From the NCBI GenBank assembly GCA_902561795.1, contig CACERG010000006.1:1-64000 (forward strand): a stretch of 64,000 nucleotides of DNA. Reading direction: 5' to 3'. The position numbers were made by a program, and so were the translations under genes. Under the pieces are notes generated by a model that ran no database searches, was not told where the DNA came from, and saw only the letters and a list, made by a program, of their open reading frames with translations. Shown here one piece after another: positions 28,375-45,416 of the stretch. Position 1 is the first letter of the stretch, and each line of letters begins with the position of its first letter. The DNA is from an uncultured Bacteroidota bacterium (GTDB lineage: Bacteria > Bacteroidota > Bacteroidia > Flavobacteriales > Flavobacteriaceae).

Positions 28375-31300
28375 ATGAGGCTGACCATAAACCTATCCTT
28401 ACACCTTTTTCTCTCATTATTTTTTGTTGTTGCCCAAGAAAAGTACACCTCTAATGTTAACGATAAAAAACTCGGCAACCTTGAAATTAAGAATTATACA
28501 AATAAATTTTTAGAAAGGCCAGAGTCTGTCTGGTCAGTAATACGGTCTAGTGAGTCAAAAAAAATATTTTATGGGACCTATGGGGGAGTTCTTGAATACG
28601 ATGGAATAAATGTAAAATCAATAGAAATTGGCGGTCCAATAGAAAATGAAATTAGAACATCATTTACAAGAACTTTACTAGAGGATCAAAACAAAAATAT
28701 TTATGCTGCAGGTGGAGGATTTTTTGGGAAAATTATAGATAGTGATTTTGGTGGGTCTGAATATGTTTCATTGATGGAAAAAATTCCTGATACGATCAAT
28801 CCATATATCCAAGTTTTTTGGGGGGGTGTTAACAAAGAAAATGACATTTATCTGTACACACGTGACTTGATATTTAAATATAATGGACAAGAATTTGATA
28901 AAATATTTAGGATTTCAGATAGAGAAGAAGGGGTTGATTCCTATGGCTCAATCCAAACAATATTAAAAGTTGATGACAGAATTTTCGCAAGAGTTTGGGG
29001 AATAGGCTTGTTTGAATTGATAAATGATAATTTTCAATTTATAGAAAACTCTGAGCTTTTTTCATCAAATAGGATTGAGTCTATGGTCTCTTTGGATGAT
29101 AACAAAATAGCTATTTTCAGCAGCAAACTAGGTGTTGTAATTTTTGATAATCTCAATAATTTTAAATTACTCAATAAAAAACAAGTAAATAAGTGGTTAA
29201 AAGAGAAACTTATTTATAACGTATCAGAAGTAAAAAAACTTTCAGACGGAAAAATACCCTTAATTTCTTTTGAAGGAGGAGTTTTGGTACTTAATAAAAA
29301 TTTAGATGTAGTCGATGTAATTGATCAGAGAGATGGATTACTTTCCAATACTATCACCTCAATTTATGTTGATCAAAATGATGATATTTATTCTACTAGT
29401 CTTTTATCTGCCTCCAAAATTAAGTTAAGTAATTCAGTTACAAGCTTTACAGAATCCAATGGGATAAAAGGTCTTGTTCAGAAAATTAAAAAAATTGACA
29501 ACAACATCTATTTTAGCACAACAGAGGATATTTTTCGTGTTGATGAAAGTAAATCGTCACTAAATAATAACAAAATTGTAGATCTTCAAATAAATGATAT
29601 CCCCAAAGACTTCATATCGTTTGGTGGAAATATTCTATCAGTAAATAATCTAAACTCTTTACTTATTCGAAAGCAAAACAAAAGTTTAGTATCTAATGAT
29701 AGACTTTTAGAATCTCCGTTAAAAAGTATGTTGGATGATAGACTCTTAATTATGGCTCATCCCATTGAGGGTATTATTTTCTTTAAACGAATTAATGATA
29801 ATAGTATAATTAAAATTAAAAGTGGTAAAATACTGAATCAACAAGGAGTCTTAGGTATCAAGGAAATTGCAAAGGGAGTTTTATTCGTTGAAACTATAAA
29901 CAATGAAGGGTCTTTTATCTGTATTTATGATAAAAAAGGCAATATAAAGTCAAAAAGATTACTGACTCCTGATAATCAAAGGGTTTTTAATTCTGAGAAT
30001 TTTCCAAATGATCAAATATTTAATTCACAAATAGACCAGGAAGAATATTTTATTCCATTGGAGTTAAATTTGATTAGTACAGGTGCAGGGTTTTTCATTT
30101 TTGATCAAAATCTAGATCTATATGGTTTTACTGAGGAATTTGATTTAAGTTCAACAGGACAGAATTTACTCTCTATTTTTGAAAAAAATCTCACCAATTT
30201 TGACCCAATAACAAGACTTGCTAATATATCTGGAAGGCAGCAATTTACTTCTGTAAATCCCATAACAAAAAATAATTGGTTCCTATCCAGTCTGGCCTTA
30301 ATTGAAGTAAGTTTTAAAGAAAACGGTCAGTATGAGATTGTTGGAGAATATCCATACGGAGTTATTGATATAAATGAATTGTCAGGAGCTATTCTTGCAG
30401 ACAATATTGGTTCAGAAAACCTTTTATGGCTGGGTTCTAAGGATTCAAAATTAATTAGCTATCTCCCAAATAAATATATTAATGAGAAAAAAATTAATGT
30501 AAAACCGATAATAAATAGTGCTTTTTTTGGTGGTCAAATTGTTAATCTATTTCAAAATGATTTTACTTACAATGATTCTAGAAATATTAAAATCGATTTT
30601 AGTTTTCCATCGCTTGAAAAAGTTGAGGAAAATCTTTTCAGATATAGGTTAATTGGGTTAAATGAAAATTGGACAGATTGGTCTGCAACTACCGAAGGTA
30701 TTTTTACTAACCTTTATGAGGGAGATTATATTTTTGAGGTGCAAGCTTTAGATGCAAATTTTAATGAAAGTGAAATTGAAAGTTACCTATTTTCTATCAG
30801 CCCTCCTTGGTATAGATCATTTTTAGCCTATTTTATTTATGTTCTGGTTATAGTAGGATTAATATGGTTTTTTGGAAAATATCAAGCTAAACGATCATTG
30901 GCTAAGGCTGAAAATGAGAGAAGAGAAAAAGATCTTGAGGAAGCTAAGCAAATTCAGGAAAGTATGCTACCGAAATCATATCCAAAAATTGAGGGTCTAA
31001 GTATAACAGCTGGATTAATAACATCAACAGAAGTAGGTGGAGATTATTACGATTTTTTTGAAAGTAATGATAAAAGCGATAGCGTTCATGTTATTTGCGG
31101 TGATGCTACTGGGCACGGTACTGCAGCTGGTATGATGGTATCAATTATAAAATCTGCTCTTAATGGGCTTCCGAATCTTCCTGTCAATGAAATACTTGAG
31201 AGATTAAATAATATCGTGAAGAAAATTAATTTGGGTAGGTTAAGGATGAGTTTAAATGTTGCTAAAATTGATAAAAATCAAATCCAAATAAGTGCTGCAG

Positions 31301-31644
31301 CAATGCCACCAACATATCTATTTAATGCAAAATTAAATGTCTGTGAGGAAATTATGATTGAAGGATTACCTCTAGGGGGCTTAAAAAATGAAAAATTCAC
31401 AATGCTTAAGAAGAAATTTCAAAAGGGGGACGTCCTAGTAATGCTTTCAGATGGATTGCCAGAAGCATCAAATGAAGACAAGGAGATGTATGACTATGAT
31501 AGAATTAAGGAATTAATATCTAAAAACCATTTAAAAGAGCCAAAAGAGATTAAAAAAGAAATGTTTGAAAGTCTTAATGAATGGATTAATGGTGGTGTAC
31601 CAGAAGATGACGTGACATTAGTTATTGTTAAAAAAGTAGCTTAA
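28375..31644 (+). CDS. Transmembrane propeller sensor with SpoIIE/RsbU-type phosphatase domain
   Basis: Large signalling phosphatase (1089 aa). A signal sequence leads to a periplasmic region of about 700 residues made of propeller blades of Reg_prop type (for example RVWGIGLFEL and DGLLSNTITSIYVDQNDD). A Y_Y_Y domain follows at about 705-800, with RYRLIGLNENWTDWS. One transmembrane helix lies at about 813-835, then a charged coiled-coil linker with EEAKQIQESMLP. The cytoplasmic PP2C/SpoIIE domain (about 870-1088) keeps GGDYYDFF near 887, CGDATGHG, SDGLPEA and PEDDVT acidic residues. Known members dephosphorylate a phospho-STAS anti-sigma antagonist. It stands near an RsbW-like and a STAS gene, so those are the likely partners; the signal sensed outside is unknown. 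Confidence 0.92.
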   Translation: MRLTINLSLHLFLSLFFVVAQEKYTSNVNDKKLGNLEIKNYTNKFLERPESVWSVIRSSESKKIFYGTYGGVLEYDGINVKSIEIGGPIENEIRTSFTRTLLEDQNKNIYAAGGGFFGKIIDSDFGGSEYVSLMEKIPDTINPYIQVFWGGVNKENDIYLYTRDLIFKYNGQEFDKIFRISDREEGVDSYGSIQTILKVDDRIFARVWGIGLFELINDNFQFIENSELFSSNRIESMVSLDDNKIAIFSSKLGVVIFDNLNNFKLLNKKQVNKWLKEKLIYNVSEVKKLSDGKIPLISFEGGVLVLNKNLDVVDVIDQRDGLLSNTITSIYVDQNDDIYSTSLLSASKIKLSNSVTSFTESNGIKGLVQKIKKIDNNIYFSTTEDIFRVDESKSSLNNNKIVDLQINDIPKDFISFGGNILSVNNLNSLLIRKQNKSLVSNDRLLESPLKSMLDDRLLIMAHPIEGIIFFKRINDNSIIKIKSGKILNQQGVLGIKEIAKGVLFVETINNEGSFICIYDKKGNIKSKRLLTPDNQRVFNSENFPNDQIFNSQIDQEEYFIPLELNLISTGAGFFIFDQNLDLYGFTEEFDLSSTGQNLLSIFEKNLTNFDPITRLANISGRQQFTSVNPITKNNWFLSSLALIEVSFKENGQYEIVGEYPYGVIDINELSGAILADNIGSENLLWLGSKDSKLISYLPNKYINEKKINVKPIINSAFFGGQIVNLFQNDFTYNDSRNIKIDFSFPSLEKVEENLFRYRLIGLNENWTDWSATTEGIFTNLYEGDYIFEVQALDANFNESEIESYLFSISPPWYRSFLAYFIYVLVIVGLIWFFGKYQAKRSLAKAENERREKDLEEAKQIQESMLPKSYPKIEGLSITAGLITSTEVGGDYYDFFESNDKSDSVHVICGDATGHGTAAGMMVSIIKSALNGLPNLPVNEILERLNNIVKKINLGRLRMSLNVAKIDKNQIQISAAAMPPTYLFNAKLNVCEEIMIEGLPLGGLKNEKFTMLKKKFQKGDVLVMLSDGLPEASNEDKEMYDYDRIKELISKNHLKEPKEIKKEMFESLNEWINGGVPEDDVTLVIVKKVA

Positions 31645-31656
31645 TTTAAAAATATT

Positions 31657-32022
31657 TCAGTTTGTTGAGTAGGTTGAATAAGTTTGTGGAGTTTTACTCT
31701 GGTAAGTATAATTATTCTTTTTGTTCTTTTCCGAGCTTTTCACCTTTTCCTTTTTTGAAATATTAGACTGTTTTACTGAATTTGAGCCATAACCATTGTA
31801 AGAAACATTTTTCTTCAATGAGCTTTTTTTGTCTATGTTAACAGCAACAGAGTTTTTATAATTGATTTTTCTATCTTGTTGAGTGAATAAATTTTGGCTT
31901 TTTGCGTCGATTTTTGAGAAGGCGTTAATGATTTCTTCACTACTTGTTTGATCGGAGTTTTTTTCATTACATGAAACAAAAATCAAAGCCATGGTAATGA
32001 AAAAAGAAAAAAATTTATTCAT
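31657..32022 (-). CDS. Small polar lipoprotein, copy 2 of a duplicated gene
   Basis: A 121-residue lipoprotein: signal peptide with lipobox IFVSC (C18), then a lysine-, serine- and asparagine-rich chain ending TYSTN. It is a paralogue of the protein encoded at 32967-33323: both have NAF.x.ID, LFT, a YxNSV segment, a YxGYGS box and a C-terminal YSTN. The low-complexity basic C-terminal half is probably disordered in the periplasm. I do not recognise the family. It is last in a four-gene minus-strand operon made of two short/long lipoprotein pairs, with gaps of 5-7 bases. Confidence 0.65.
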   Translation of the reverse strand: MNKFFSFFITMALIFVSCNEKNSDQTSSEEIINAFSKIDAKSQNLFTQQDRKINYKNSVAVNIDKKSSLKKNVSYNGYGSNSVKQSNISKKEKVKSSEKNKKNNYTYQSKTPQTYSTYSTN

Positions 32023-32029
32023 GGAATTT

Positions 32030-32959
32030 TTATTTAATTCGTTTGTAAACTAATCCTCTTCCAGTAGCTTCACTATTATTAATCAATCCTGAATTGGATT
32101 TATCTATCTGAAGAAATAAATCATCATTATAAAAGGTTATTTCATGTGTTTGTCTGTTAACTTTTGGGTCAAATGTTGGAGTAGAAATTCCAGAGCCCCA
32201 TTCTTGATATTCATATAACATATTATTTTCGATGTCCAATTCAAATGATCCGTAACCACCTAAACCTCCATATAACATCTCATTGGGTTCAGCAAAACCA
32301 GTTAAGTCTAGTTGATACATATATCTACCACCAGACATAATCTTTACATCCAAAATAACATCACCTGGTGCAGAAGTAGTGTCAACAGGAATATCATTTA
32401 CATATGCAATTTCATAAACTCTTTTCCATACACCGTCGATTTTTGACTTTGGCGCTAAATCAGGGAGCTTCTCCCAATATTCAGCATAGTTGCTTTCAGC
32501 ACTATTTTTTTGTGAAAAAGTTTCGCTATTAACTAAATTAATACTCATATTCCATGCTTGGGAATTTGTCCCTTGTTTATCCTTATACTCCTTCAATCCA
32601 GATCCCATTAATCCTGTCCCATTAGACATTAATTCAGTCAAAGAATCCCTTGAGTAAATATTAAACTTACCATAGCCTCCGGACCCTCCTTTCCATGGAG
32701 CAGTAGAATCTTTCCAAAAGTTATTTAACCACATAACACGATCGCTTAAATAAGCTTTGATTTGCTTATTATCAGGATTTTCAGAATCTTTAAAAGCTAA
32801 GGTATCAACTTCAATACCATTCATTAATTGGATGGTTCCAACTCTATTCCAAAAACCAAGAATATCTTCTTCATAAGAATCAACATTAGGTTTTGTTTGA
32901 TTGTTACCGCAAGAAGATATTAATATTATTAGTAGTACAAAAAATATTTTTTTTATCAT
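32030..32959 (-). CDS. Two-domain lipoprotein, copy 2 of a duplicated gene
   Basis: A 309-residue lipoprotein (lipobox LISSC, C17). It holds two similar halves, each starting with a tryptophan-containing opening (GFWNRVG near residue 35, GVWKRVYE near 172). Each half has a VDT element (IEVDTLAF, IPVDTTS) and a glycine-rich GGYG box (GGSGGYGKF, GGLGGYGSF). The fold looks beta-rich and lipocalin-like, but this is a guess. The whole protein is paralogous to the one at 33329-34267 and both end with an [LI]VY[KR]RIK-type tail. It lies 7 bases after its short partner gene. No known function. Confidence 0.7.
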   Translation of the reverse strand: MIKKIFFVLLIILISSCGNNQTKPNVDSYEEDILGFWNRVGTIQLMNGIEVDTLAFKDSENPDNKQIKAYLSDRVMWLNNFWKDSTAPWKGGSGGYGKFNIYSRDSLTELMSNGTGLMGSGLKEYKDKQGTNSQAWNMSINLVNSETFSQKNSAESNYAEYWEKLPDLAPKSKIDGVWKRVYEIAYVNDIPVDTTSAPGDVILDVKIMSGGRYMYQLDLTGFAEPNEMLYGGLGGYGSFELDIENNMLYEYQEWGSGISTPTFDPKVNRQTHEITFYNDDLFLQIDKSNSGLINNSEATGRGLVYKRIK

Positions 32960-32966
32960 AATATAT

Positions 32967-33323
32967 CTAATTTGTTGAATAAGCTGAAAATTGAAGATTA
33001 ACTTTTGGCTTTGATTTAACTTTCACTTTTTTGGCTTTTTGGAGGTCATCCTTTTCAACTTTTTTCTTTTTATTATTTAATGATCCATAACCACTATATC
33101 CTGAGTTTGTGTTTGATGTTAATGATTTTTTCAATGACTCAGCTTTATTTACAGAATTGTTGTAAGATTTAATTCTTTCTTCTTTGGTAAAAAGTTTTTT
33201 GTCTCTATTATCAATATTATCGAAAGCATTAGATTTAGTTTTACTTTCTTTAGCGTCAGCTTCTGAACATGTGTTGAGTATCAGTAGTGGAAATAGAATT
33301 AAAAGGTAACTTAAACTTTTCAT
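32967..33323 (-). CDS. Small polar lipoprotein, copy 1 of a duplicated gene
   Basis: A 118-residue lipoprotein with signal peptide and lipobox ILNTC (C19). The mature part is polar and lysine-rich, with NAFDNIDNRDKKLFTKEER, a SGYSGYGS box and the C-terminal AYSTN shared with the protein at 31657-32022. The conserved end suggests a functional C-terminal tag or contact. It lies 5 bases after the long lipoprotein gene at 33329 and 7 before the second long one. Function unknown. Confidence 0.65.
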   Translation of the reverse strand: MKSLSYLLILFPLLILNTCSEADAKESKTKSNAFDNIDNRDKKLFTKEERIKSYNNSVNKAESLKKSLTSNTNSGYSGYGSLNNKKKKVEKDDLQKAKKVKVKSKPKVNLQFSAYSTN

Positions 33324-33328
33324 GGGCT

Positions 33329-34267
33329 TTATTTTATTCTTCGGTATATTAAACCCCTTGTTCTTTCTCGTTGACCCTGAAGATCAGGGGCATTTTTTCC
33401 TATTTGTAAGAAAGTATCATCATCATAAAATGTCATATCATGGTACCAAGTCCAAGATCTTGGTATTGTATCCAATACAAAGTTGCCAGAGCCATACTGA
33501 ATATATTCTCGTAATTCATCATTCGAGTATTCTATTTCTCCAAAGCCTCCAGCTCCACCAAAGCCAGGCTTGGTTGGATCTGTTTGGATTTTTGTTCTGT
33601 CAACCTGATATAAAAAATAACCATCTTTCATAACTTTTATGTCAAGAATTACATCTGACGGAACTGAGGTTGTATCTACAGCGACACCATTTACATAAAT
33701 TATTTCATATGCCCTTTTCCAAACACCATCAATTTTTGATTCTGGTAAACTTGGCATTTTTTCATAAAATTCAGCCATAGCAATACCTTCTTCATTAGCT
33801 TCTCCTTTTTGAATATAATTCTTTTCTGTTAGGGTATAACCAAATTTAAATGGTATAGTGGAGGTTTTTGCCTCATCTCTCAAATTTTTCATGTACATAG
33901 CCATATCTCCAGTGGCGTGAGACATAAATTCTGTAATTGAATCCTTTTCAATTTTAAATTTACCATATCCGCCCATTGAACCCTTCCATGGTGAGTTTGG
34001 GCTTGGATTATTCATAATCCAAAAAATGTTTCCATCTAAAAAGGCCTTCATCTGAATAAAATCCTTTCCAGGGGGATCTAAATCACCATCGGCATAATAA
34101 AGAGTGTCTACCGGTTTGCCATTCACAAATTGGACCATTCCAGTTCTTTTCCAAAAACCTTCAATCATTGAAGATTCATCAGGCGTAGTTGCTTTGTCTT
34201 TTGGTGCTTCACCACATGAAATTGCGAGTAAAATTATTAGTGAGCTTAATGATTTGGTTAATTTCAT
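33329..34267 (-). CDS. Two-domain lipoprotein, copy 1 of a duplicated gene
   Basis: A 312-residue lipoprotein (lipobox LAISC, C18) with two internal repeats: GFWKRTG near residue 38 and GVWKRAYE near 182. They share PVDTLYY/AVDTTS elements and GGYGKF/GGFGEI boxes. It is clearly paralogous to the protein at 32030-32959; VWKR.YEI.YVN..VDTTS.P.DVILD.K is shared between the second halves. It is the first gene of the four-gene lipoprotein operon, transcribed away from the RsbW-like/STAS/cyclase operon across a 93-base AT-rich gap that must hold both promoters. Function unknown; a role as an outer-membrane signal or cargo-binding part of the island is possible. Confidence 0.7.
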   Translation of the reverse strand: MKLTKSLSSLIILLAISCGEAPKDKATTPDESSMIEGFWKRTGMVQFVNGKPVDTLYYADGDLDPPGKDFIQMKAFLDGNIFWIMNNPSPNSPWKGSMGGYGKFKIEKDSITEFMSHATGDMAMYMKNLRDEAKTSTIPFKFGYTLTEKNYIQKGEANEEGIAMAEFYEKMPSLPESKIDGVWKRAYEIIYVNGVAVDTTSVPSDVILDIKVMKDGYFLYQVDRTKIQTDPTKPGFGGAGGFGEIEYSNDELREYIQYGSGNFVLDTIPRSWTWYHDMTFYDDDTFLQIGKNAPDLQGQRERTRGLIYRRIK

Positions 34268-34360
34268 AGATAGAAATTTTATATTGATTTATGATTAATT
34301 TTTTATAAATATAAATTTTATATAAATTAGATCCAAGTATTCATAAACCAATTTTAGATA

Positions 34361-34783
34361 ATGAAGAAAAACCCTACTGTCGAACTAAAACTTCCGATTT
34401 TAAAGGACATGGAGCTTGTTGCTACACATACTTCTGATGTTGTAGCTAAGTACATGAATTTATCTGAGGAAAAATCTGCTGAAATTTCAATGGCACTTAT
34501 CGAAGCATGTATCAATGCTTTTGAACATTCTGAAACAAAAGAAGATATATACATACATTTTATAATTAGTGATGATGTGTTGACGATTAAGGTCATAGAC
34601 AAAGGTGTTGGATTTGATGCTTCTTCTATAGAATTGCCTAATATAGATAAAAAAATTACCGACGAAAGAAAACGTGGCTGGGGACTTATGCTAATTAAAG
34701 AGCTAATGGATAAAGTTGATTATGAATCCGATAATACTGGAACAACATTAACAATGACTAAAAATAAAGAAACTGATGAGTAG
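34361..34783 (+). CDS. RsbW/SpoIIAB-like serine kinase (HATPase)
   Basis: Small GHKL-fold protein of the anti-sigma-factor kinase type, 140 aa. The N-box EACINAFEHS gives E48, N52 and H56, the G1 box is DKGVGFD (80-86) and the G2 box is RGWGLM (105-110). These are the residues that bind ATP and magnesium in SpoIIAB and RsbW, so kinase activity is plausible. Its stop overlaps the start of the STAS gene by 8 bases. By homology it would phosphorylate that STAS protein and, when the STAS protein is dephosphorylated, be captured by it and release another partner. No sigma factor gene is nearby. Confidence 0.92.
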   Translation: MKKNPTVELKLPILKDMELVATHTSDVVAKYMNLSEEKSAEISMALIEACINAFEHSETKEDIYIHFIISDDVLTIKVIDKGVGFDASSIELPNIDKKITDERKRGWGLMLIKELMDKVDYESDNTGTTLTMTKNKETDE

Positions 34784-35117
34784 TATTACAGGTAAAAGTA
34801 TTAGGGATGGAATTGTAATTATTTCAACAGAAGGTTATTTTAATAAAGATTTGGGTGAAGCATTAAAAGCAGTATCCGAGGAAGAAATTCAAAATGGCCA
34901 TAAAAACTTTCTAATTAATCTTGAAAACTCAAAAATTGTAAATAGTATCGGGGCCTCAATTTTAATTGAAATAATTGAAGATCTTCAGTCCATGGACGGC
35001 TCATTAAATTTTTGCAACTTAGCTCCTATCATTGCTAAGACTTTCAAGATAATGGGGTTAACAAAGTATTGTGAAACTTTTGAAAATGAAGATGCAGCCA
35101 TAGCTAAATTGGCTTAA
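34776..35117 (+). CDS. STAS-domain antagonist (RsbV/SpoIIAA-like)
   Basis: Single STAS domain of 113 aa. The phosphorylation loop reads KIVNSIGAS: S57 aligns with the phosphoserine of SpoIIAA (S58 of MDSSG) and RsbV, but the aspartate before it is asparagine (N56) and the next Ser/Thr is isoleucine. The C-terminal helix FKIMGLTKYCETFENEDAAIAKL is typical of the family. It is translationally coupled to the RsbW-like kinase gene and one base before the cyclase gene. It should be the substrate of the kinase and of the two SpoIIE-type phosphatases in the window; this pairing is inferred. Confidence 0.9.
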   Translation: MSSITGKSIRDGIVIISTEGYFNKDLGEALKAVSEEEIQNGHKNFLINLENSKIVNSIGASILIEIIEDLQSMDGSLNFCNLAPIIAKTFKIMGLTKYCETFENEDAAIAKLA

Positions 35118-35118
35118 A

Positions 35119-37074
35119 ATGCAACTCGATTTTTCCTCTTTTTCAAAAGTTTATGACAAAGAGAAACTTCCAAATAAAAAAATCGATTTAATTGTTGAAT
35201 GGCTTGAAAAAAAAGGTTTTCAAGTAAAGTTTTTTTTAGACAATAAAAATCTATTGTCAAAATCAAAAAAGGCTTCCTTTGTTAAGATTGAAAGTTTAGA
35301 TTTCTCAAGTTTATTTTCAAAAAAAAATCTCCTTCCCTATTCTAAAATTTCTAAACATTTTCATACCAATTTATTTGACGATGACAATAATTCACTAAAC
35401 AACCTCGAGGGATTAGTTGCTGGACTAAAGGTTAAATCTTCTTATGTTGGAGCATTTTATTTGTGGAACTCTAAAGTTGATAATCAGGATTTGATCACAA
35501 CAATTGAATATTTTAAGCATTTGGTTCAATCAAACTTTAGAGAATTACTCTTAAGTAAAAAGTTGAGAAAAAATACTTCAGATTTAAGAGATAAAAAATT
35601 AGAAATTGAATCATTTATTGACATATCAGAGCTATTAAGTGGAACAAGTGAGTCAGAAATTTTATTTCAAAACCTTTTAGAATATCTTGTGTTTACAATG
35701 AATGCAACAAAAGGAATAATTCTTTCTAAAGAACCTAATTCAGGAATTTATGAGATAAAAGCAACATTAGGAATAAAAGACGATCTAGATAAAAAAATCT
35801 TTAGAGAAAATAAGGGAGTTTTATCAATTCTTAAAAAAGAAAAAAAATCATTTCTGCTTAATTTCTCAGAGGGTTTACCATTACTATCTTTTTCTGAAAA
35901 AAATTCTGTAGTTGGTCCTTTTTTAAATGGTAAAAATCTTAATGGTTGTATAATATTATATGACAAGGAAAGCAGAAAAGGTTTTGTTGATTTTGATCAA
36001 TACGATTTAAGATTTTTTAATTCTATTGTTAAAAAAATCTCTTTATCCTATAACAACATAATTTTATTGGACAATGTCAAAAAATCAAAAAAACTTATTG
36101 ATAACATAATGTCTTCGATTTCCACAGGTATTGTAAAAATTAATCTGATGGGTGAAATAGAATATATCAATGATTCGGCAATAGATATTTTTCAGCTTGA
36201 CAAATCCATACTACTAGATAATCATTATGCAATGGTCTTTGAGGGGAATCCTGAACTTGTAGAATTAATAGAATTTGCGGAAAGTAGAAATCATATACTT
36301 TACGAGGAAAATTTGAAAGTAAAAAAACAAGACAAAAATGAAACTAACATTAATCTCACCATTTCTCCTGTTTTTGATGATGGTGTTAATTCAGGTTCGG
36401 TAATCTCATTTGAGGATTTATCTGATATAAATAAAGTGAAATCAACTTTTAAAAAATATGTGTCTGAAAATATAGTTGATGAATTACTTTTGAATGAGCA
36501 TTCTTTAGAGCTTGGTGGAGTAGAACAGGAAGTATGCGTGCTATTTTCAGATATTAGGGGCTTTACTTCTATGTCCGAGCGAATGGAGCCTTCTAAGGTT
36601 GTTACTCTTTTAAATAGTTTTTTTGATAAAATGATAGATGTCGTTTTCAAATATAATGGGACTTTAGATAAAATTATTGGCGACGAATTAATGGTACTTT
36701 ATGGAGCGCCACTAAAAAAATCAGATGATATTTTAAATGCTGTAAAAACTGCAAAAGAGATGTTTATAACACTTGATAAATTTAATATCAAAATGATTGA
36801 TGAAGGGTATCCCAAATTGAATATTGGAATTGGTATTAATTATGGTAAGGTAATATGTGGTAATATAGGTTCTGAGCAACAGATGAACTATACAGTAATT
36901 GGTGATACTGTAAATTTAGCTTCAAGATTGTGTTCAGCTGCTAGACCAGGCGAAATTATAATTTCTGATAGTGTTTACAAAAATCTAGATGACAATAAGG
37001 GTTTTTCAATTAATGAAGAATTATTATTAAAGGGTAAAAAGCAACCAGTAAAAAACTGGAAATTTTCTTATTAG
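35119..37074 (+). CDS. GAF-PAS class III nucleotide cyclase
   Basis: A 651-residue soluble protein. Residues 1-150 are a domain I do not recognise. A GAF-like domain lies at about 165-310, a PAS-like domain at about 325-435 and a class III nucleotidyl cyclase domain at about 465-651. The metal-binding aspartates are D478 (FSDIRGFTS) and D522 (DKIIGDELM). K518 is in the purine-reading lysine position. The TVIGDTVNLASRL segment has Thr where class IIIa enzymes have Asp, plus the transition-state Asn and Arg. Lys/Thr is the pattern of class IIIb adenylyl cyclases, so cAMP is the first guess, but base choice must be tested. It is the last gene of the kinase-STAS-cyclase operon, and its stop touches that of a convergent PycTM-like gene. 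Confidence 0.92.
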   Translation: MQLDFSSFSKVYDKEKLPNKKIDLIVEWLEKKGFQVKFFLDNKNLLSKSKKASFVKIESLDFSSLFSKKNLLPYSKISKHFHTNLFDDDNNSLNNLEGLVAGLKVKSSYVGAFYLWNSKVDNQDLITTIEYFKHLVQSNFRELLLSKKLRKNTSDLRDKKLEIESFIDISELLSGTSESEILFQNLLEYLVFTMNATKGIILSKEPNSGIYEIKATLGIKDDLDKKIFRENKGVLSILKKEKKSFLLNFSEGLPLLSFSEKNSVVGPFLNGKNLNGCIILYDKESRKGFVDFDQYDLRFFNSIVKKISLSYNNIILLDNVKKSKKLIDNIMSSISTGIVKINLMGEIEYINDSAIDIFQLDKSILLDNHYAMVFEGNPELVELIEFAESRNHILYEENLKVKKQDKNETNINLTISPVFDDGVNSGSVISFEDLSDINKVKSTFKKYVSENIVDELLLNEHSLELGGVEQEVCVLFSDIRGFTSMSERMEPSKVVTLLNSFFDKMIDVVFKYNGTLDKIIGDELMVLYGAPLKKSDDILNAVKTAKEMFITLDKFNIKMIDEGYPKLNIGIGINYGKVICGNIGSEQQMNYTVIGDTVNLASRLCSAARPGEIIISDSVYKNLDDNKGFSINEELLLKGKKQPVKNWKFSY

Positions 37075-37608
37075 CTAAATAGCATAAATACTAATAAAAA
37101 ATAATGTTATAAATATTAGTGATCTCAGTAAATGTTTGAGTCCCTTATTAACGTTTAGAAATTTAGTTGATGCAATATTCGCTGTGGCATAAACAGATTG
37201 AGTTAAATGTTTTCTGTAAGTGTTTTCATCATTTAGTACTTCTTCTAGAGAATCATAAAAGTTTTCAAAGTTTTTGTATTTAGATACATCCCCGAAAAAT
37301 AATGGAGATTTTTTAACTGTAAAATCAAATCTTGGTAGAATACACATAACACATCTTCTTAAAGATGCGATAATAAAAAAAAAGGATACACCGAGAAGTA
37401 AAATGTGTACTACTCCGGAAAATCCTGAAGAAAAAGAATAAATATTTTCTTCATCCAATATGTCTAGTGTGTAACCTAAACCGAAAATTAGACTATAAAT
37501 TGATATTATAGCCGTAGCTTTAACTTCGGCAAACTGAATCTGACCATAATTGTAATTGATAACATTCCAATAATCTTCAATATCAATATTTTTGAGTTTG
37601 CCGCTCAT
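37075..37608 (-). CDS. PycTM/DUF5706-like membrane protein (Pycsar effector family)
   Basis: A 177-residue membrane protein that matches the layout of the Pycsar effector family PycTM (DUF5706). The N-terminal soluble helix carries YNYGQIQFAEVKATAIISI (20-36 in part), then TM1 at 31-51 and TM2 at about 65-90, followed by the LPRF motif (91-94). The SPLFFGDV segment (101-108) is next, then a helical region with a KHLTQSVYATANIASTKF segment, and a final hydrophobic helix (157-177). In Pycsar defence such proteins damage the membrane on binding cCMP or cUMP made by a neighbouring cyclase. Here the neighbouring cyclase is convergent and controlled by sensor domains. Whether it is a defence effector or a housekeeping cyclic-nucleotide responder is open. 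Confidence 0.82.
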   Translation of the reverse strand: MSGKLKNIDIEDYWNVINYNYGQIQFAEVKATAIISIYSLIFGLGYTLDILDEENIYSFSSGFSGVVHILLLGVSFFFIIASLRRCVMCILPRFDFTVKKSPLFFGDVSKYKNFENFYDSLEEVLNDENTYRKHLTQSVYATANIASTKFLNVNKGLKHLLRSLIFITLFFISIYAI

Positions 37609-37839: not shown

Positions 37840-38280
37840 TTACTGCAGTTCTGGGCAAAGTATATCAAAACCTTGCTCAGCCTCATAAAAACTTGTTATG
37901 TTACTTGTTGGGTAAATTGAACTACACTCATCATAGGTTCTGAATAGTTCTCCCTGATTGTTGAGATAGTAAGTAAAAGTTCCACAGTGATTTAATCTTT
38001 CACCGGTAACCCTGTAACCTAATTTTAATGTATCTGTACCACTTTTCAATATGGTATATTGAAATTCATTACCTCTTATGTCCTTTGGATTTTCAGTAAA
38101 TTCCAAACAAATTCCATCTTCAACAAGAATCAGTCTAAAAGGATCATTTTTAAAAATCTTGTAATTTGATCCTCTTGTCCAAACAATATCACTAACTTTT
38201 TCTAGAAATAATTCTTGCTTAGTTTCCTTACTACAGGAGAAGAGAACAATCAACATAAAGAGAAGTAAAATCTTTTTCAT
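37840..38280 (-). CDS. Putative lipoprotein of unknown function
   Basis: A 146-residue lipoprotein: signal peptide with lipobox VLFSC (C16). The mature part is beta-rich with VWTRGSNYKIF, CLEFTENPKDIRG and a cysteine-containing CGTFTYYLNNQGELF. It has three or four cysteines beyond the lipobox (for example in DGICLEF, HCGTF, DECSS and ILCPEL) that could form periplasmic disulfides. The family is not recognised. It is convergent with the zinc-ribbon gene. Confidence 0.6.
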   Translation of the reverse strand: MKKILLLFMLIVLFSCSKETKQELFLEKVSDIVWTRGSNYKIFKNDPFRLILVEDGICLEFTENPKDIRGNEFQYTILKSGTDTLKLGYRVTGERLNHCGTFTYYLNNQGELFRTYDECSSIYPTSNITSFYEAEQGFDILCPELQ

Positions 38281-38283
38281 AAT

Positions 38284-38373
38284 TCAATTTTTTTTCACGA
38301 AGTCTTTAGCAATAGCAATAAGCACAATAATCATGGTAATTACAACAACAACTGCTACACCTTTAGGAGTCAT
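38284..38373 (-). CDS. Possible 29-aa single-pass membrane protein
   Basis: A 29-codon frame starting ATG at 38373, encoding MTPKGVAVVVVITMIIVLIA and a short basic tail (IAKDFVKKN). It is almost entirely one transmembrane helix with positive C-terminal residues. It lies 3 bases upstream of the lipoprotein gene on the same strand, as if in one unit. Small size alone makes it uncertain; the helix and charge pattern favour a real miniprotein. Confidence 0.4.
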   Translation of the reverse strand: MTPKGVAVVVVITMIIVLIAIAKDFVKKN

Positions 38374-38455
38374 AGAATTTTTTTTAACTCTGCAAATATA
38401 AAAAAACAGCTGTATTGATTTAATTTAGTGTTGTAATTAATAAATAGATTTAAGC

Positions 38456-38914
38456 TTGATAAAATTAAGAGAAGCCAAAATAAAAGATTTATCTACGCTA
38501 TTGGAATTCGAAAAAAGCCTTATCGAATATGAAAGGGCTTTTACTCCTAATCTAAAAAAAAGTGATTTCAATTATTACGATTTGGAATCTTATATTAAAA
38601 ATCCTGAAATTTCAGTTGTAGTTGCAGAAAAAGAAAATTCTTTAATCGCTTCAGGGTATGCACTTATTCGTTTAAACAAAACGTATAAAAACCCCTCACA
38701 TATAGTATTTCTTGGATTTATGTATGTAGTACCGAACTATAGGGGTAAGGCAGTCAACAAAAAAATTTTAGATTACCTATTAGACTGGGGCAAAAAAAAG
38801 GGGTATTCAGAATTCCAACTTGATGTTTACGCTCCAAATCAAAGTGCAATAAAAGCCTACAAAAAAGCTGGATTTGAATTTGAAACAATTACAATGAGGT
38901 TAAATATAGAATAG
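38456..38914 (+). CDS. GNAT family N-acetyltransferase
   Basis: A 152-residue GCN5-type acetyltransferase. The acetyl-CoA loop is VVPNYRGKAVNKKILDYLLD, a Q/RxxGxA-type motif in degenerate form, and the C-terminal DVYAPNQSAIKAYKKAGFEF is the typical beta6-beta7 segment. The start is TTG at 38456, since no ATG fits. Acceptor substrate unknown. It is monocistronic between the miniprotein and the plug-domain gene. Confidence 0.87.
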   Translation: MIKLREAKIKDLSTLLEFEKSLIEYERAFTPNLKKSDFNYYDLESYIKNPEISVVVAEKENSLIASGYALIRLNKTYKNPSHIVFLGFMYVVPNYRGKAVNKKILDYLLDWGKKKGYSEFQLDVYAPNQSAIKAYKKAGFEFETITMRLNIE

Positions 38915-39003
38915 TCAACATTTGATATATTTAAAAACTATAATGATTAAGCTTTTTTTTTAAATTCTTTTATTTATTTTGTAATGACTATAAATTAATT
39001 GAA

Positions 39004-40548
39004 TTGAAGAAATACATACTAATTTTCTTAGTATTAAATCCAATAATGCTTTTCTGCCAACAGGGAAGAAACATTGACCTAGATGAAGTTGTCAATACTG
39101 CTGGAATAATTCCAAGAATAAATATAGACGGTTTGATCTATTCGGTCAGAGATAGAGATCAAATAATGACAAACATTTTGAAATCACCTTTCTGGAAAAA
39201 GGGTTACAAGTTCACTATTAATCTTGAGGATTATGATACTGGGAAAAAATATTTTTATCAAAATAAAGGAAGACTAAGGATTTTAATAAATAATATTGAA
39301 TTAACATCAAGGCACAATTTTAAAACATATAAAACAATCAATGAGCTTTTAAAAAATTCAGAAGATATTTCTATCATTTCAAGTTCTGAATTTGTAAAAA
39401 AAGAATCAAACGAATTAAATCTTGACTATGTAGCTGGTCAACCAATTTATTCAGGAGCTGAAAAAGAAGAAGTCCCTGTAACGTTTATTAAAATAAGTTC
39501 CATTTTGGGGAGTGACGTAGTCTACAACAAAGCAAGAAAAGAAAGAAAAAAATTAAAAAAACTTTCAGATTTTAAGGTAATATCAGAAAAACAAGAGATT
39601 CCTGTTGCAGCTAATGGTCCAGGCGCGACTTTTTTGCAACCTGGAAGTGTTGCGACTATTGACCAAGTTAAATCAATAGAATTAGACAATGTTGATTTAA
39701 CACAGAACATTGAAGATGACGGTGTGGTATACACCCCAAAATTAGTTAACGGACAAATTACTTTTACAAAAAACGCAAAGCTTACAAGAATAAAAAAACA
39801 AAGTGAACGGTATAAAAGGATGGGTCTCAATGAATGGGGTATAGACGTAAACGCAAACACCTGGGCACAAGCTTTAAGAGCTCATCTTAAAGGTAAGCAA
39901 ACTTTTGTAACCAGTGACGGTTTCCCAGTACTTTTTGCAGCTGTAACTCTTGGAAGCCGACAACCTCAGCCAATGTGGGTTGTCGATGGTGTTTATTTAA
40001 ACGAGGCACCTGTAAATGTGAGATCTTTGGCATATTTAATTCGTGAAGTAAATGTTTATAAATATGATACAGCAAAGTTTGGCTCAAGGGGAGCTGCGGG
40101 GGTTATTGAAATTTTTACATTAAGTGGTTTTTCAGAAAGTACAGGTAGCTATAAAAGAAGTTTTGAGGTAAAAGGGAAAGAAAATATTAAGTTAATGGAG
40201 ACGTTCCAAAGTTTTGAAAAACAATTTTTATCTAGAAGAGAAGAACTGAATGATGTGAGAAAAATTTTGATTCAACTCAATGAACCTGAAAGAGTTGATT
40301 CAATACAAGGATTATTAGAATCATTAACATTAAAAAGCTACTTATTTACTGCTAATTTTGCAATTAATAACGCTGAATTTGAGATTGCTCCATATCTAGC
40401 ACTTACTAAAATATCTGATGCTCAACTTCCTATACTAGAATCTATAGAAAAAAAATTATCTCCGCAGGTGAGAAAATCTAAATATGGGAAAAGGTTTATT
40501 GAATTTTTAGAAAACAAAAAACAAAAAGATTCGACAAATTTTCAATAG
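39004..40548 (+). CDS. Exported protein with an orphan TonB-receptor plug-like domain
   Basis: A 514-residue secreted protein with signal peptide (residues 1-19, ending MLFCQQ) and a TTG start at 39004. The central part (about residues 280-380) resembles the plug of SusC-type receptors: PMWVVDGVYLNEAPVN followed by VYKYDTAKFGSRGAAGVIEIFT. No beta-barrel follows; instead there is about 120 residues of helical sequence ending with a lysine-rich tail. A DUF-like beta region occupies residues 20-250. A plug without a barrel cannot form a pore alone, so it may bind another receptor or serve as a soluble sensor. Function unknown. Confidence 0.7.
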   Translation: MKKYILIFLVLNPIMLFCQQGRNIDLDEVVNTAGIIPRINIDGLIYSVRDRDQIMTNILKSPFWKKGYKFTINLEDYDTGKKYFYQNKGRLRILINNIELTSRHNFKTYKTINELLKNSEDISIISSSEFVKKESNELNLDYVAGQPIYSGAEKEEVPVTFIKISSILGSDVVYNKARKERKKLKKLSDFKVISEKQEIPVAANGPGATFLQPGSVATIDQVKSIELDNVDLTQNIEDDGVVYTPKLVNGQITFTKNAKLTRIKKQSERYKRMGLNEWGIDVNANTWAQALRAHLKGKQTFVTSDGFPVLFAAVTLGSRQPQPMWVVDGVYLNEAPVNVRSLAYLIREVNVYKYDTAKFGSRGAAGVIEIFTLSGFSESTGSYKRSFEVKGKENIKLMETFQSFEKQFLSRREELNDVRKILIQLNEPERVDSIQGLLESLTLKSYLFTANFAINNAEFEIAPYLALTKISDAQLPILESIEKKLSPQVRKSKYGKRFIEFLENKKQKDSTNFQ

Positions 40549-40622: not shown

Positions 40623-42212
40623 ATGAAAAAAATAATTTTTTTAATTCTAACCTTAATAATTGCCTCATGTTCAGAGAAAAAAGATGTTTTAGAGATTCCA
40701 CTCACATCTGATTCTCCTGAAGCAATTTCAATTTTATCAGAGGAATTATTTTTTAAGACAAATAAAATTTCATCTGGACTAATTAATAGATTTTTTAATC
40801 CGGATCTTTATACAGCATTGAAGAAGGCATTAGAAATTGACCCTAATTTTGTATTTGCAAAAGCATTACTTGCTGACTCAGATGACCAGTTAACAAGGAG
40901 TGATATGATATCATTGTTAGATGAATCTTTTAAAGCTCGAAATAGTGTTTCAGATATTGAAAAAGGATTAATTGAAGCTATTTATTTTTATCGTGTTAAT
41001 GGTGATAAAGTAAAAGCTGCTCAAATACTTGATAAGCTAGTATTGGATAATCCTGAATATTATTATTTAAGACTTTTTAACGGTAATTTTAAGAATTTTG
41101 TAATGTTAGATCCGAAAAGTTCTGAGAGTAACTGGAAAGAAGCATTAAAAATAAACCCCAATGCTGATATTGCAAAAATCCTTTTAGCTCAACTTCATTT
41201 TGTAACTGTGCCAAATTTTGTGCTTTTAGAATCAGATGAAATAGACTTAGATTTTGCTAAAAAAATGATTAAAGAAGTTGAAAAGAATAAACCAAATTCC
41301 TCAACTCCACAAAGACTTTTAGGGAATGTGTATAGAGTCGAGGGTGACTTTGATTCTTCATTAAAGGCCTATGAGAGTGCTATGAAACTTATCAAAGATA
41401 AAAGTAGTTCTTTATACGGTAATTTACTTCTAGTTAGTGGACATGTTTATTTATTTAAAGGTGAATATGAAAAAGCAAGAGAATATTATAAGAAATCCAC
41501 TGAAAACGGTTCAATTGGTAATATTGTAAACATTTTAGCTTGGTCGTCAAATTCATATTTGTATGAAAAAAAATATAATAAAGCTTTGATTGCAATTGGC
41601 GAATTACAAAAAATAGTGAGTAAATATGAGGTAGATCCTTTGACCAAAAATAATTTATTATTCAGGTGTGCTCAAGAAAAATTTATAGCTTATGGGCATA
41701 GCCAAATGAAGAACGAAACAAAACAAGTAGTCAGCGAGATTAGAGATATAGAAGATAAAATAAAATCTATTCGATTGGAAAACGTTAGCTCTGAATCTGA
41801 GAAAAGAAATATAGAATTACAAAGCGAACTGAGTCAATCTTTCTTTCAAATATGGTACAACATATTATTTGGAGAGTATCAAATTGCAAGAGAATCTTTA
41901 AGAAATTTTTCACTCCTTTCAAGTGAATTTTTAAGTTTTGATTCTAAGGCCATGATAAACTTTTATAAGCTTTCAGGTTATTTGAATTTAATGGAGGGAA
42001 ATGTTAACCAATCTATCTCATTTTATGAGCAAATCCCAACAGAATTACTGGAAGGCGATAATTATCAACTATATTTTTATGCTTTAGCTAAAAAGGCTAA
42101 CGGGAATACAAAAAAGAGTAATGAGTTATTTGATTATTTAGCCAATTACAATTTTGCAGGCTGGGAAAATTCAATAATCAGACCTTTAGCCAAAAACCAA
42201 ATTAAAGATTAG
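40623..42212 (+). CDS. TPR-repeat lipoprotein
   Basis: A 529-residue lipoprotein (lipobox LIIASC, C17) made of tetratricopeptide-like helices. Recognisable units include ALKKALEIDPNFVFAKALLA, YRVEGDFDSSLKAYESAMKL and FKGEYEKAREYYKKSTENG. TPR lipoproteins usually act as scaffolds on the periplasmic side. The gene ends 15 bases before the second phosphatase gene, so the two are likely co-transcribed. The TPR protein may therefore tie an envelope signal to that phosphatase's periplasmic propeller; this is inferred. Confidence 0.82.
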   Translation: MKKIIFLILTLIIASCSEKKDVLEIPLTSDSPEAISILSEELFFKTNKISSGLINRFFNPDLYTALKKALEIDPNFVFAKALLADSDDQLTRSDMISLLDESFKARNSVSDIEKGLIEAIYFYRVNGDKVKAAQILDKLVLDNPEYYYLRLFNGNFKNFVMLDPKSSESNWKEALKINPNADIAKILLAQLHFVTVPNFVLLESDEIDLDFAKKMIKEVEKNKPNSSTPQRLLGNVYRVEGDFDSSLKAYESAMKLIKDKSSSLYGNLLLVSGHVYLFKGEYEKAREYYKKSTENGSIGNIVNILAWSSNSYLYEKKYNKALIAIGELQKIVSKYEVDPLTKNNLLFRCAQEKFIAYGHSQMKNETKQVVSEIRDIEDKIKSIRLENVSSESEKRNIELQSELSQSFFQIWYNILFGEYQIARESLRNFSLLSSEFLSFDSKAMINFYKLSGYLNLMEGNVNQSISFYEQIPTELLEGDNYQLYFYALAKKANGNTKKSNELFDYLANYNFAGWENSIIRPLAKNQIKD

Positions 42213-42227
42213 TTTGGTTTAGACCTT

Positions 42228-45200
42228 ATGACAATAATAAAAAATATTTTTTGTTGTATTCTATTTTTTGGTTTGAGTCATTCGTTACTTGGACAGACTT
42301 CCTATTCTAAGTATAATCTCAGCTCAAATTATATCGAAAGTATTTTTTATGATAGGGATGGAAAGTTGTGGATTGGAACAGACGAGGGCTTAAACCTAAT
42401 TACTAGCCATGATCAGTATCAATTCCTAGCTGACATCTCTGATGAAAAAGGCATACTAGATTCGGAAATTTTCAAACTCATCAACTTGAAAAATGGTAAT
42501 CTTGCAGCCTTCTCAATTAATGGTTTAAGTATATTTAATCCTAATGAATTTAATTTCAAACAGATTGCATTAAAATCTAAGCCGGTTTCTATCTATTTTG
42601 ATATTAACACAGATTCTTATTGGATTACCACTGAGGAAAGCGGTATTGTAGTTGTTGATGATAAATTTGAAATAAAAAATGATTTTTCTTTTGATCCTTT
42701 AAATCCACTTTCTGTTTCGTCTTCAAGGTTTACAGGCGAAAATAAAATTGTTTTTGATAATCAAAATGCTTTTGTTGGGACTAGCAATGGGTTTAACATT
42801 TTTAATAAAGAACAACAAACTTTTAAGAGATTTTATTCGGGGAAAAATGGATTGGATTCAAATCTAATAATAGGAATTTTTAAGTTAGACAAGGATTCTG
42901 TTTTGGTTGCAACAGCTAATAAAATATTCCTTTTTGATATTTTGTCTGAAAAATTCAAACCCCTTAATCTCGAAATAGAAACCTTGGATGAAATAATTCA
43001 GATAAGTACAAATGAATTCTTTTTATCAAGTGAATCTAGCGTTTATTCAATTCAACTATTAAATGATTTAAGTTTTAAAAAAGAGTCAATACACAGTTTC
43101 AAATCTAAAAAATCAGCTAGTTTTAAAAAGTTAGAAGAAGGGATTTTAATTTTCAATCAAGACCTAGATTATATTTTAAAGTTTGATACAAAATCTAAAT
43201 CAATTTCCAAATATTTAGTTTTTAATAATATTAATGCTGTTGAAAAAATTAATTCAAGACTAATTATTGGAACAGACCTTGGTATAATAGAAAAACCATT
43301 GTTTCAAAATATTATAAACACGAAGAAAAATGACAAAGATTTGTTCTTCTACGATAATAAATATAATAATGAAACACGAGTCTATAAATCCCTTATTAAA
43401 ATTAAATCAAATGGTTTGCAAAAATCATTTAGTATTCCTAAATCGATAGCAGTAAATAGAAACACTCTATTTGAAATAAATGATGATTATTTATTCATCT
43501 TTGATAATAAACTTCATGTATTTGATTTTAGTTCTAGATCATTTGAGACGAAGCTAACAACTTTTGATGATTATCTTAAAGGTGAAATTACATCTATAAA
43601 GCTCATTGATAAATATTTGTACTTATCAACTGGGAATGGAATTGTTGGTATCAATATAAAAAAATCTAAGAACCCAAGAAAGTCATTCAGAAGCAGTATA
43701 GAAAAATTTGAATATAATAATTTACTTAACAATGAAGTTCCTAAATCATTCTCAGATATAGAAAAAGTTGGGAATTATTTTTTTGTTGGGAGTGAGAATG
43801 ATGGGCTTTCACTTTATAAAAATGCCTTTAACCAATTGATTAAAAAATTTGATTATGAGAGGGAGAATCTTAAAACACTTTCGTCTAAATCGATTGTCAA
43901 AATTTTCAATGATGATTTGGAAAATCAATTATTATTGGCGACAAGAGGTAGTGGCTTATTTACTTTAAATTTAAGTGATAGTTTATTTACAAATTACAAT
44001 TTAAGTGATGGCCTACTTTCTAATAATATAAATGATTTCGCAAAAATTGATGGTAAAATTTGGATACAATCTGGCAATGGGATTAATTTTTTTGAAAATG
44101 GGGTGCTAAGAAATATAAACCCTGATGATGGCATAAAAATAAATTCATTTCATAAAGAATCTATTCATAAGCTGGATGGAAAAATATTTCTTACTGGTTA
44201 CAAAAATTCACAAACTTTTAATCCAAATGATATTAAGAAATTCCAATCTTATAAACTCAAAGTTGGAGTTTTAAATATTACAGGATATGACGATGAAAAT
44301 ACTGGGAGAATTATACCAAAATCTGATAGCCTAATAACCATAGATGACGGTGTTAGTTCACTGGAATTAAATCTTTTCACCAACGCTTCAAATAAAAATA
44401 ATTTAGTCCAATATTCTTACAAAACTTCTTTCGGAGAAAAAATAATTGAAGTAGATAATTTCAAAAATAAAATTAAGTTAAACTCTTTGCCATTTTATGA
44501 TTCTCAAATACAAATTTTTGCAAAAGATGGTAATGGGAATAAAAACTCAAACACTCTCATTTTAAATTTCTACAATATTCCCCCCTGGTGGTTAAGAATT
44601 GAGACAATTATTTTTTATGTTGTTTTCAGTATAATATCTATTTATTTGATTGTTAAGTTCAGAGAAAATCAAACAAAGAAAAGAATTGAGGGAGAACGTA
44701 AATCTAAGGAACTTGAGGAAGCGAGAAATCTCCAAAATAGTCTTTTACCAAAAATTAACCCAGAAGTTGACGGTTATCAAATTAGTACATTTTTAAAATC
44801 AGCAACAGAAATTGGAGGTGACTATTATGACTTTTTCTATGAAAAAGGGAAATATTTTTATGCTATTTGCGGGGATGCAACGGGGCATGGTGTAATTTCT
44901 GGAATTATGGTTTCAGTAACAAAAGCCGCATTAAGCGGAATTCCCATGAGTTCACCGAGTAAAATTTTAGAGCAATTGAATGGAATTGTTAAAAAAGTAA
45001 ATTTTGGAAGATTAAGAATGAGTTTAAGCGTTGCAAAAATTAATGAGGACTCAATTGAGTTAAGTTCTGCTGCAATGCCACCTACTTATTATTTTAATTC
45101 CAAAAAAAATAATCTTGAAGAAATTTTGGTTCCAAACCTACCTCTTGGCGGTATTCAAAGGGAAAAATTTGACGGAATAAGACTAAACTTCAAAAAGGGT

Positions 45201-45416
45201 GATATAATTGTTATGATTTCTGATGGCCTTCCTGAATTACCTAATCCGAATGAAGAGATTCTCGATTATGAGAAAGTTGAGCAGTGTTTAAAAAATAATT
45301 CAAAGAAAGGAGCTGAGGAAATAAAAGATGCATTAGTAAATCTTTCCGAAGAATGGTCAAATGGCATGTTAAATCCTGATGATATTACAATTGTTGTAAT
45401 TAAAAAAGCAGCTTAG
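42228..45416 (+). CDS. Second transmembrane propeller sensor with SpoIIE/RsbU-type phosphatase domain
   Basis: A 1062-residue paralogue of the protein at 28375. A signal peptide ends near SLLGQ. The periplasmic propeller part begins with SKYNLSSNYIESIFYDRDGK and continues as Reg_prop-like blades (LWIGTDEGLNLI, TNYNLSDGLLSNNI). The Y_Y_Y region is weak (about 665-780) and one transmembrane helix lies at about 790-812. The SpoIIE domain has GGDYYDFF near residue 862, CGDATGHG, SDGLPELPNPNEE and NPDDIT. Compared with the first copy the catalytic residues are kept but the outer part has diverged strongly, so it probably senses something else. It follows the TPR lipoprotein gene by 15 bases. Confidence 0.92.
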   Translation: MTIIKNIFCCILFFGLSHSLLGQTSYSKYNLSSNYIESIFYDRDGKLWIGTDEGLNLITSHDQYQFLADISDEKGILDSEIFKLINLKNGNLAAFSINGLSIFNPNEFNFKQIALKSKPVSIYFDINTDSYWITTEESGIVVVDDKFEIKNDFSFDPLNPLSVSSSRFTGENKIVFDNQNAFVGTSNGFNIFNKEQQTFKRFYSGKNGLDSNLIIGIFKLDKDSVLVATANKIFLFDILSEKFKPLNLEIETLDEIIQISTNEFFLSSESSVYSIQLLNDLSFKKESIHSFKSKKSASFKKLEEGILIFNQDLDYILKFDTKSKSISKYLVFNNINAVEKINSRLIIGTDLGIIEKPLFQNIINTKKNDKDLFFYDNKYNNETRVYKSLIKIKSNGLQKSFSIPKSIAVNRNTLFEINDDYLFIFDNKLHVFDFSSRSFETKLTTFDDYLKGEITSIKLIDKYLYLSTGNGIVGINIKKSKNPRKSFRSSIEKFEYNNLLNNEVPKSFSDIEKVGNYFFVGSENDGLSLYKNAFNQLIKKFDYERENLKTLSSKSIVKIFNDDLENQLLLATRGSGLFTLNLSDSLFTNYNLSDGLLSNNINDFAKIDGKIWIQSGNGINFFENGVLRNINPDDGIKINSFHKESIHKLDGKIFLTGYKNSQTFNPNDIKKFQSYKLKVGVLNITGYDDENTGRIIPKSDSLITIDDGVSSLELNLFTNASNKNNLVQYSYKTSFGEKIIEVDNFKNKIKLNSLPFYDSQIQIFAKDGNGNKNSNTLILNFYNIPPWWLRIETIIFYVVFSIISIYLIVKFRENQTKKRIEGERKSKELEEARNLQNSLLPKINPEVDGYQISTFLKSATEIGGDYYDFFYEKGKYFYAICGDATGHGVISGIMVSVTKAALSGIPMSSPSKILEQLNGIVKKVNFGRLRMSLSVAKINEDSIELSSAAMPPTYYFNSKKNNLEEILVPNLPLGGIQREKFDGIRLNFKKGDIIVMISDGLPELPNPNEEILDYEKVEQCLKNNSKKGAEEIKDALVNLSEEWSNGMLNPDDITIVVIKKAA

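Follow-up and report, generated by a model that had tools for sequence, protein, structure and literature searches.

A divergent lipoprotein array between a SpoIIE-type sensor phosphatase and an RsbW-STAS-cyclase operon in a marine flavobacterium

Why should four lipoprotein genes lie between the parts of a bacterial signalling system and differ so strongly from one relative to the next? The question is raised by a 64,000-nucleotide stretch of DNA from a marine flavobacterium (the window; contig CACERG010000006.1 of assembly GCA_902561795.1), in which two copies of a long/short lipoprotein gene pair, here termed LONG and S, occupy the gap between the gene for a SpoIIE-type sensor phosphatase, SPOIIE1, and an operon encoding an RsbW-like kinase, a STAS domain protein and a nucleotide cyclase. 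From sequence comparisons, we propose with about even confidence that the LONG/S operon would supply the input from the envelope to a partner switch, whose outputs would be the cyclase and, probably, a membrane effector of Pycsar type. Between relatives, the array genes have diverged much more strongly than the genes around them, a contrast that points to the array as the changeable, outward part of the signalling system.

The array and its linkage to a partner switch

The array genes lie on the minus strand and are transcribed from position 34267 to 31657 in the order LONG1 (33329..34267; 312 residues), S1 (32967..33323; 118 residues), LONG2 (32030..32959; 309 residues) and S2 (31657..32022; 121 residues). 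Separated by 5, 7 and 7 bp, they look like a single operon. All four open reading frames are present and each encoded protein has a lipobox-like N-terminus as judged by eye, in agreement with the original prediction of four lipoprotein genes forming two copies of a pair. LONG1 shares 44% identity with LONG2 (E 1.6e-67), and each is built of two tandem domains, at approximately residues 33-172 and 177-312 of LONG1. The N- and C-terminal halves of LONG are homologous by profile-profile comparison (hhalign probability 98.3%, E 1.6e-14), as expected from the two internal repeats first noticed in the sequence. S1 and S2 are also homologous (BLASTP E 6e-11, 37% over 86 positions) and share the NAF, LFT, GYGS and YSTN motifs. 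The further claim that the locus carries four copies of one domain is right for the two LONG proteins and wrong for S, which belongs to a different, smaller family. LONG1/S1 and LONG2/S2 are separate lineages that have kept the same positions in six species, so the pair duplication is not recent; the LONG and S trees agree on three position classes, 1, 2 and 3.

The array is placed as predicted between a phosphatase and a divergent kinase gene. Downstream of it and convergent, 12 bp away, lies its constant neighbour SPOIIE1 (28375..31644, plus strand), a sensor with a Y_Y_Y domain and propeller matches below cut-off, joined to a cytoplasmic SpoIIE phosphatase. On the other side, a 93-bp divergent intergenic region (34268..34360) separates LONG1 from the plus-strand operon of the RsbW-like HATPase_c_2 kinase (34361..34783), the RsbV-like STAS domain protein (34776..35117) and a PAS domain-containing class III nucleotide cyclase (35119..37074). 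Convergent with the cyclase on the minus strand is the gene for PycTM, a Pycsar-type membrane effector (37075..37608).

The linkage was followed in 38 genomes of the genus and 397 sampled from the family, which are incomplete; the window genome itself, G000, comprises 1.73 Mb in 41 contigs and has an estimated completeness of 80.8%. Two-domain LONG proteins were found in 12 species from four genera, and 11 of the 12 loci have a SPOIIE1-type phosphatase on one side and RsbW-STAS-cyclase on the other. At the twelfth locus, near a contig end in G844, a LONG protein whose second domain was judged by eye stands beside PycTM and TPR genes, with a piece of a phosphatase at the contig edge and no kinase or cyclase in view. 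The co-occurrence with a phosphatase on which the original prediction had been staked thus extends to a SpoIIE-type gene near two-domain LONG in all 12 species, with RsbW-STAS-cyclase present too in 11. A full two-domain LONG away from a SPOIIE1-type locus was not seen among the sampled matches listed, for which few candidates were scored per genome. A contig scan returned a single relative, a 5.1-kb contig ('uncultured Bacteroidetes bacterium isolate AG-920-B11') that is counted once together with G325, and viral contigs contained no relative of the A1 profile.

Within the genus, eight of the 38 genomes carry two-domain LONG; a LONG match in G319 is single-domain, stands at another site and was not counted. 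S is present in nine genomes, one of which (G322) has a sequence that ends just after S, and a weak match in G318 (E 0.0071) was left out of the count. The same nine carry SPOIIE1, of which G325, where a contig ends, shows only a C-terminal piece, and all nine are among the 13 genomes that possess the cyclase. The number of pairs is one in G324 and G332, two in G000, G325, G301 and G321, and three in G323 and G331. A restriction of LONG to the genus is ruled out by two-domain copies in three further genera, found in four of the 397 family genomes (G692, G885, G780 and G844). The first three of these keep SPOIIE1 (46-56% identical), LONG/S and RsbW-STAS-cyclase together, and in G692 two pairs face each other. 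PycTM is adjacent in 10 of the 11 assessable LONG loci, being absent from G780 and not assessable in G325.

The LONG and S families

No match above a Pfam cut-off, and none below E 0.046, was obtained for 16 LONG proteins, and the four window proteins gave only sub-threshold matches to Pfam and NCBIfam. DUF4488 reached its curated cut-off in 0 of the 16, LONG itself matches neither Lipocalin_4 nor Lipocalin_8, and a search of the window genome with the DUF4488 model (PF14869) found nothing. An order-wide single-sequence search of 296 genomes gave weak LONG matches in six other genomes, all to single-domain proteins of ~150 residues. In five of the six, at least one such relative adjoins a gene that we take to encode a thioredoxin reductase-like protein; one genome (G133, L007 845-1818) has two adjacent relatives of 148 residues each near such a gene. 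The profile of the single-domain relatives aligns with the N-terminal LONG domain at an hhalign probability of 99.5% (E 7.7e-23), and it is through these relatives that a fold is indicated. One of them matches DUF4488 over positions 1-96 of 123 (E 3.4e-4, 20.9 bits, cut-off 27), others touch Lipocalin_4 (E 0.044) and Lipocalin_8 (E 0.037), all below curated cut-offs, and their profile matches most of the length of PDB entry 4gzv, a 'hypothetical protein' (E 0.0051). A PDB search with mixed domains gave one match, at chance level. AlphaFold2 predictions of LONG from alignments of 4 and 8 rows, made up of window and L012 sequences, reached pLDDT values of 31.4 and 35.6, too low to confirm a lipocalin fold.

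The LONG profile matches 141 of the 397 family genomes at 1e-6 (window genome included), and among the matches listed, of which few proteins were read, most span one domain. By these comparisons LONG is a lipoprotein in which a common domain, mostly present singly elsewhere, has been duplicated, and the weak matches make a lipocalin-like fold likely, if short of proven. The family was originally called unknown, a description that is half right: the curated models bear it out, but the domain has many relatives, most of them single-domain proteins, and through them a weak link to DUF4488 and the lipocalin-like families. Unlike DUF4488, Lipocalin_4 and Lipocalin_8 proteins, LONG is a lipoprotein of two domains and keeps to a signalling locus.

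Wherever S was found, LONG or SPOIIE1 lay next to it. The exceptions are weak matches, among them those in six genomes outside the genus (E 3.8e-4 to 0.0066), which mostly cover the signal-peptide end and were taken as chance; a Peptidase_S39 match of S1, at 19.3 bits against a cut-off of 21, was also put down to chance. S proteins have Lys-rich tails (18-32%) and in 16 of 16 aligned sequences end in [F/Y]S[A/T]YSTN, the window endings being FSAYSTN in S1 and YSTYSTN in S2. The S protein of G322 also ends in FSAYSTN, and four from two other genera have the looser endings YSAYATN, FSAYTTN (twice) and FSAYGQN. In the window genome the pattern occurs only in S1 and S2, with no occurrence in a reversed control.

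Export of lipoproteins to the surface has been ascribed to a signal after the Cys of the form K-(D/E)2, Q-A-(D/E)2 or serine plus two acidic residues (PMC5080379). By these criteria, none of the 16 LONG proteins and one of the 16 S proteins (S2 of G301) has a surface-export signal; S1 of G325 and S1 of G331, judged by eye, have none. The lack of the signal in LONG favours a periplasm-facing position, and we infer an outer-membrane anchor and a periplasmic orientation for both LONG and S.

Divergence and probable exchange of array alleles

Compared in 400-bp bins, G000 and G301 are 86-98% identical in the flanking DNA and 64-77% identical in the array, with edges at ~31.6 and 34.4 kb. The array genes have the four highest proportions of synonymous differences (pS) among 32 orthologues, from which a non-orthologous SPOIIE2 row was excluded: 0.49-0.76, against 0.45 for RsbW, the next highest, and a median of 0.18 for the 29 non-array rows. 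Between G000 and G325 the island is a mosaic that breaks at ~33.1 kb, the LONG2/S2 bins being 95-97% identical, S1 and LONG1 70-87% and the kinase side 87-95%; dS is 1.13 for LONG1 and 0.10 for LONG2. Between G323 and G331, dS is ~1.3 for LONG1 and S1, 0.79 for LONG2 and 0.58 for LONG3, and 0.16-0.28 for SPOIIE1, RsbW, STAS, cyclase and PycTM. A similar pattern is found in another genus, where G692 and G885 differ with a pS of 0.32 in LONG and 0.30 in S and of 0.05-0.13 in RsbW, STAS, cyclase and four genes past PycTM; their SPOIIE1 proteins are 93.8% identical over 601 positions, and a whole LONG/S pair of G692 is missing in G885.

Several values do not fit a sharply bounded island. In the comparison of G000 with G325, dS is higher for RsbW (0.68) than for S1 (0.60); S2 (0.22) and S3 (0.21) are not raised between G323 and G331; and PycTM is raised like LONG between G692 and G885 (pS 0.32). 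Between G000 and G331 the array again has the highest pS, 0.74-0.83, a range near saturation and only slightly above that of other genes, which reach 0.67.

Trees of LONG group G301 with G321, G323 and G331, with support for LONG1 of 96/95 in one tree and 81/86 in another, and for LONG2 of 87/91 or no resolution. The flanking proteins reject this grouping (log-likelihood loss 322, p-AU 0.00015). The grouping of G000, G325 and G301 is mildly rejected by LONG1 (p 0.037) and rejected neither by LONG2 (p 0.33) nor by the flanks (p 0.40). There was no sign of codon-level positive selection, pairwise dN/dS being at most 0.43 where computable, and the raised dS points to diverged alleles instead. These sequence patterns are most simply read as the result of repeated swapping, under purifying selection, of alleles that had diverged.

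A locally diverged segment between conserved flanks is a mark of variable surface receptor loci, which the array resembles in this respect. It differs from them in its link to a signalling sensor and in the lack of a surface-export signal in LONG. Among such loci are the receptors of secreted antimicrobial proteins of Bacteroidales, which are described as highly variable (PMC12853789).

Further along the window, a lipoprotein gene at 37840 and a gene at 39004 with a sub-threshold TonB-plug match (together 37840-40548) are 93-97% identical to their counterparts in G301 and 55-65% identical to those in G331, and may possibly form a second exchanged segment.

A proposed envelope-side input and competing readings

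A SpoIIE phosphatase, a STAS protein and a HATPase_c_2 kinase in one locus recall the RsbU/RsbV/RsbW modules, from which the window locus differs by its periplasmic-type sensor N-terminus, the class III cyclase in the kinase operon and the lipoprotein array between the parts. The adjacent cyclase and PycTM genes likewise recall Pycsar (PycC and PycTM), matching the PADLOC models for PycC (E 4e-25) and PycTM (E 7e-21). The window cyclase differs from Pycsar in being long, in having a PAS domain, in its convergence with PycTM, in its position beside a partner switch and lipoproteins, and in motifs, TLDKIIGD and NYTVIGD (15 of 15 cyclases read), that suggest an ATP-type enzyme where a Pycsar cyclase would be pyrimidine-specific. 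The parts are of known kinds, and their combination and the exchangeable array seem to be new: the open-licence literature searched contained no description of the SPOIIE1-LONG/S-RsbW-STAS-cyclase combination or of such an array, and no paper dealing with both SpoIIE and Pycsar.

In the mechanism that we propose, the LONG domains would bind a variable partner, either a ligand or a foreign protein, and S, probably a flexible basic tether that would include the conserved C-terminal [F/Y]S[A/T]Y..N peptide, would dock LONG on a conserved periplasmic part of SPOIIE1. Docking would switch the SpoIIE phosphatase and so change STAS phosphorylation and RsbW binding; the STAS/RsbW switch would then control the cyclase, whose cyclic nucleotide would act on PycTM. 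All the contacts in this scheme, and the direction of signalling, are ones that we infer. Gene linkage and co-occurrence lend partial support to the earlier suggestion that the lipoproteins form the envelope side of the phosphatase/kinase system, and a contact with the propellers stays a proposal.

An input role is supported by the linkage of two-domain LONG to the phosphatase and switch genes, the shared distribution of S and SPOIIE1, the agreement of the LONG and S trees, the conserved S ending and the missing export signal of LONG. It is further supported by the persistence of the linkage even where the phosphatase has diverged to 46-56% identity and by the conservation of the intergenic region beside strongly diverged genes. 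It also has a parallel in a second SpoIIE sensor phosphatase, SPOIIE2 (42228-45416), directly upstream of which lies a TPR lipoprotein gene (40623-42212; lipobox by eye); the two also occur together in G303, G308 and G316. From this pairing it seems that every sensor phosphatase may work with a lipoprotein of its own.

Other observations weigh against an input role. In G303, G308, G313 and G316, RsbW-STAS-cyclase occurs with neither LONG/S nor SPOIIE1, so the core can do without LONG/S. Nor are LONG and S always paired: two LONG genes accompany a single S in G780, and no S was seen with LONG in G844. Because the genomes come from related species, the linkage counts do not represent independent events, and the export-signal criteria derive from other genera. 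Finally, LONG1 of G000 is ~48% identical to that of G301 or G331 and the phosphatase is 91-92% identical, which makes a tight LONG-phosphatase interface unlikely unless it is formed through conserved residues or through S.

Might the lipoproteins instead be outputs of the pathway, their expression or activity controlled by the switch, co-located for co-regulation and with no role in sensing? Envelope and stress functions are common targets of partner switches, the four genes are closely spaced, and the divergent intergenic region is conserved, with 53 invariant columns across eight aligned loci, of which G324 carries an insertion next to LONG. The lipoprotein genes that adjoin this intergenic region are the least conserved at the locus. 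TTTATGA is present in all eight loci and its inverted copy TCATAAA in seven; these could be a possible site for a shared regulator, or a product of chance in AT-rich DNA, for which there was no chance control. An output is expected to follow the core, however, and LONG/S track the SPOIIE1-type sensor, being absent from the four genomes with the core alone. We consider an output role unlikely.

Somewhat less likely again, in our judgement, is a role in defence, in which the array would offer phages, toxins or predators a receptor or bait of variable sequence, would be under selection for diversity and would be kept beside the Pycsar-type effector so that an attack sets that effector off. The divergence island with its sharp edges and mosaic break, the tree conflict between LONG and its flanks, the PADLOC matches of cyclase and PycTM, and the frequent adjacency of PycTM are all as such a role would have it. 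The missing export signal makes a surface target less likely, however, the cyclase motifs look ATP-type, dN/dS gives no indication of codon-level positive selection, and the PADLOC models pick up none of LONG, S, SPOIIE1 and the kinase. More doubtful still is a periplasmic version, in which an attacker would perturb LONG, S would relay this to the phosphatase, and cyclase and PycTM would fire as a Pycsar-like immune circuit, its core constant and its recognition lipoproteins swapped between lineages. Least probable of all is an unrelated periplasmic or surface cassette at a recombination hotspot, linked by ancestral synteny only, since, although the outer neighbours DedA, MTase and SDR are kept in six of seven genus neighbourhoods (window included; G321 differs), the immediate outer neighbours differ in the other genera, yet SPOIIE1-LONG/S-RsbW-STAS-cyclase stay together in three of four, and one pair of G692 is inverted yet lies inside the same gap.

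Signal reception by SpoIIE-type phosphatases with large periplasmic sensors seems to have been little studied in Bacteroidota, and a conserved core with an exchangeable module of one to three lipoprotein pairs would amount to a natural experiment in signal input. The Pycsar-type effector beside a SpoIIE/STAS/RsbW partner switch may deserve a study of its own. PycTM is also found near the cyclase in loci that lack LONG/S (G313, G303 and G316), and in G303 and G316 the SPOIIE2/TPR lipoprotein pair stands in a row with PycTM, facing RsbW-STAS-cyclase. G301, G323 and G331 are without the SPOIIE2/TPR lipoprotein pair at this site.

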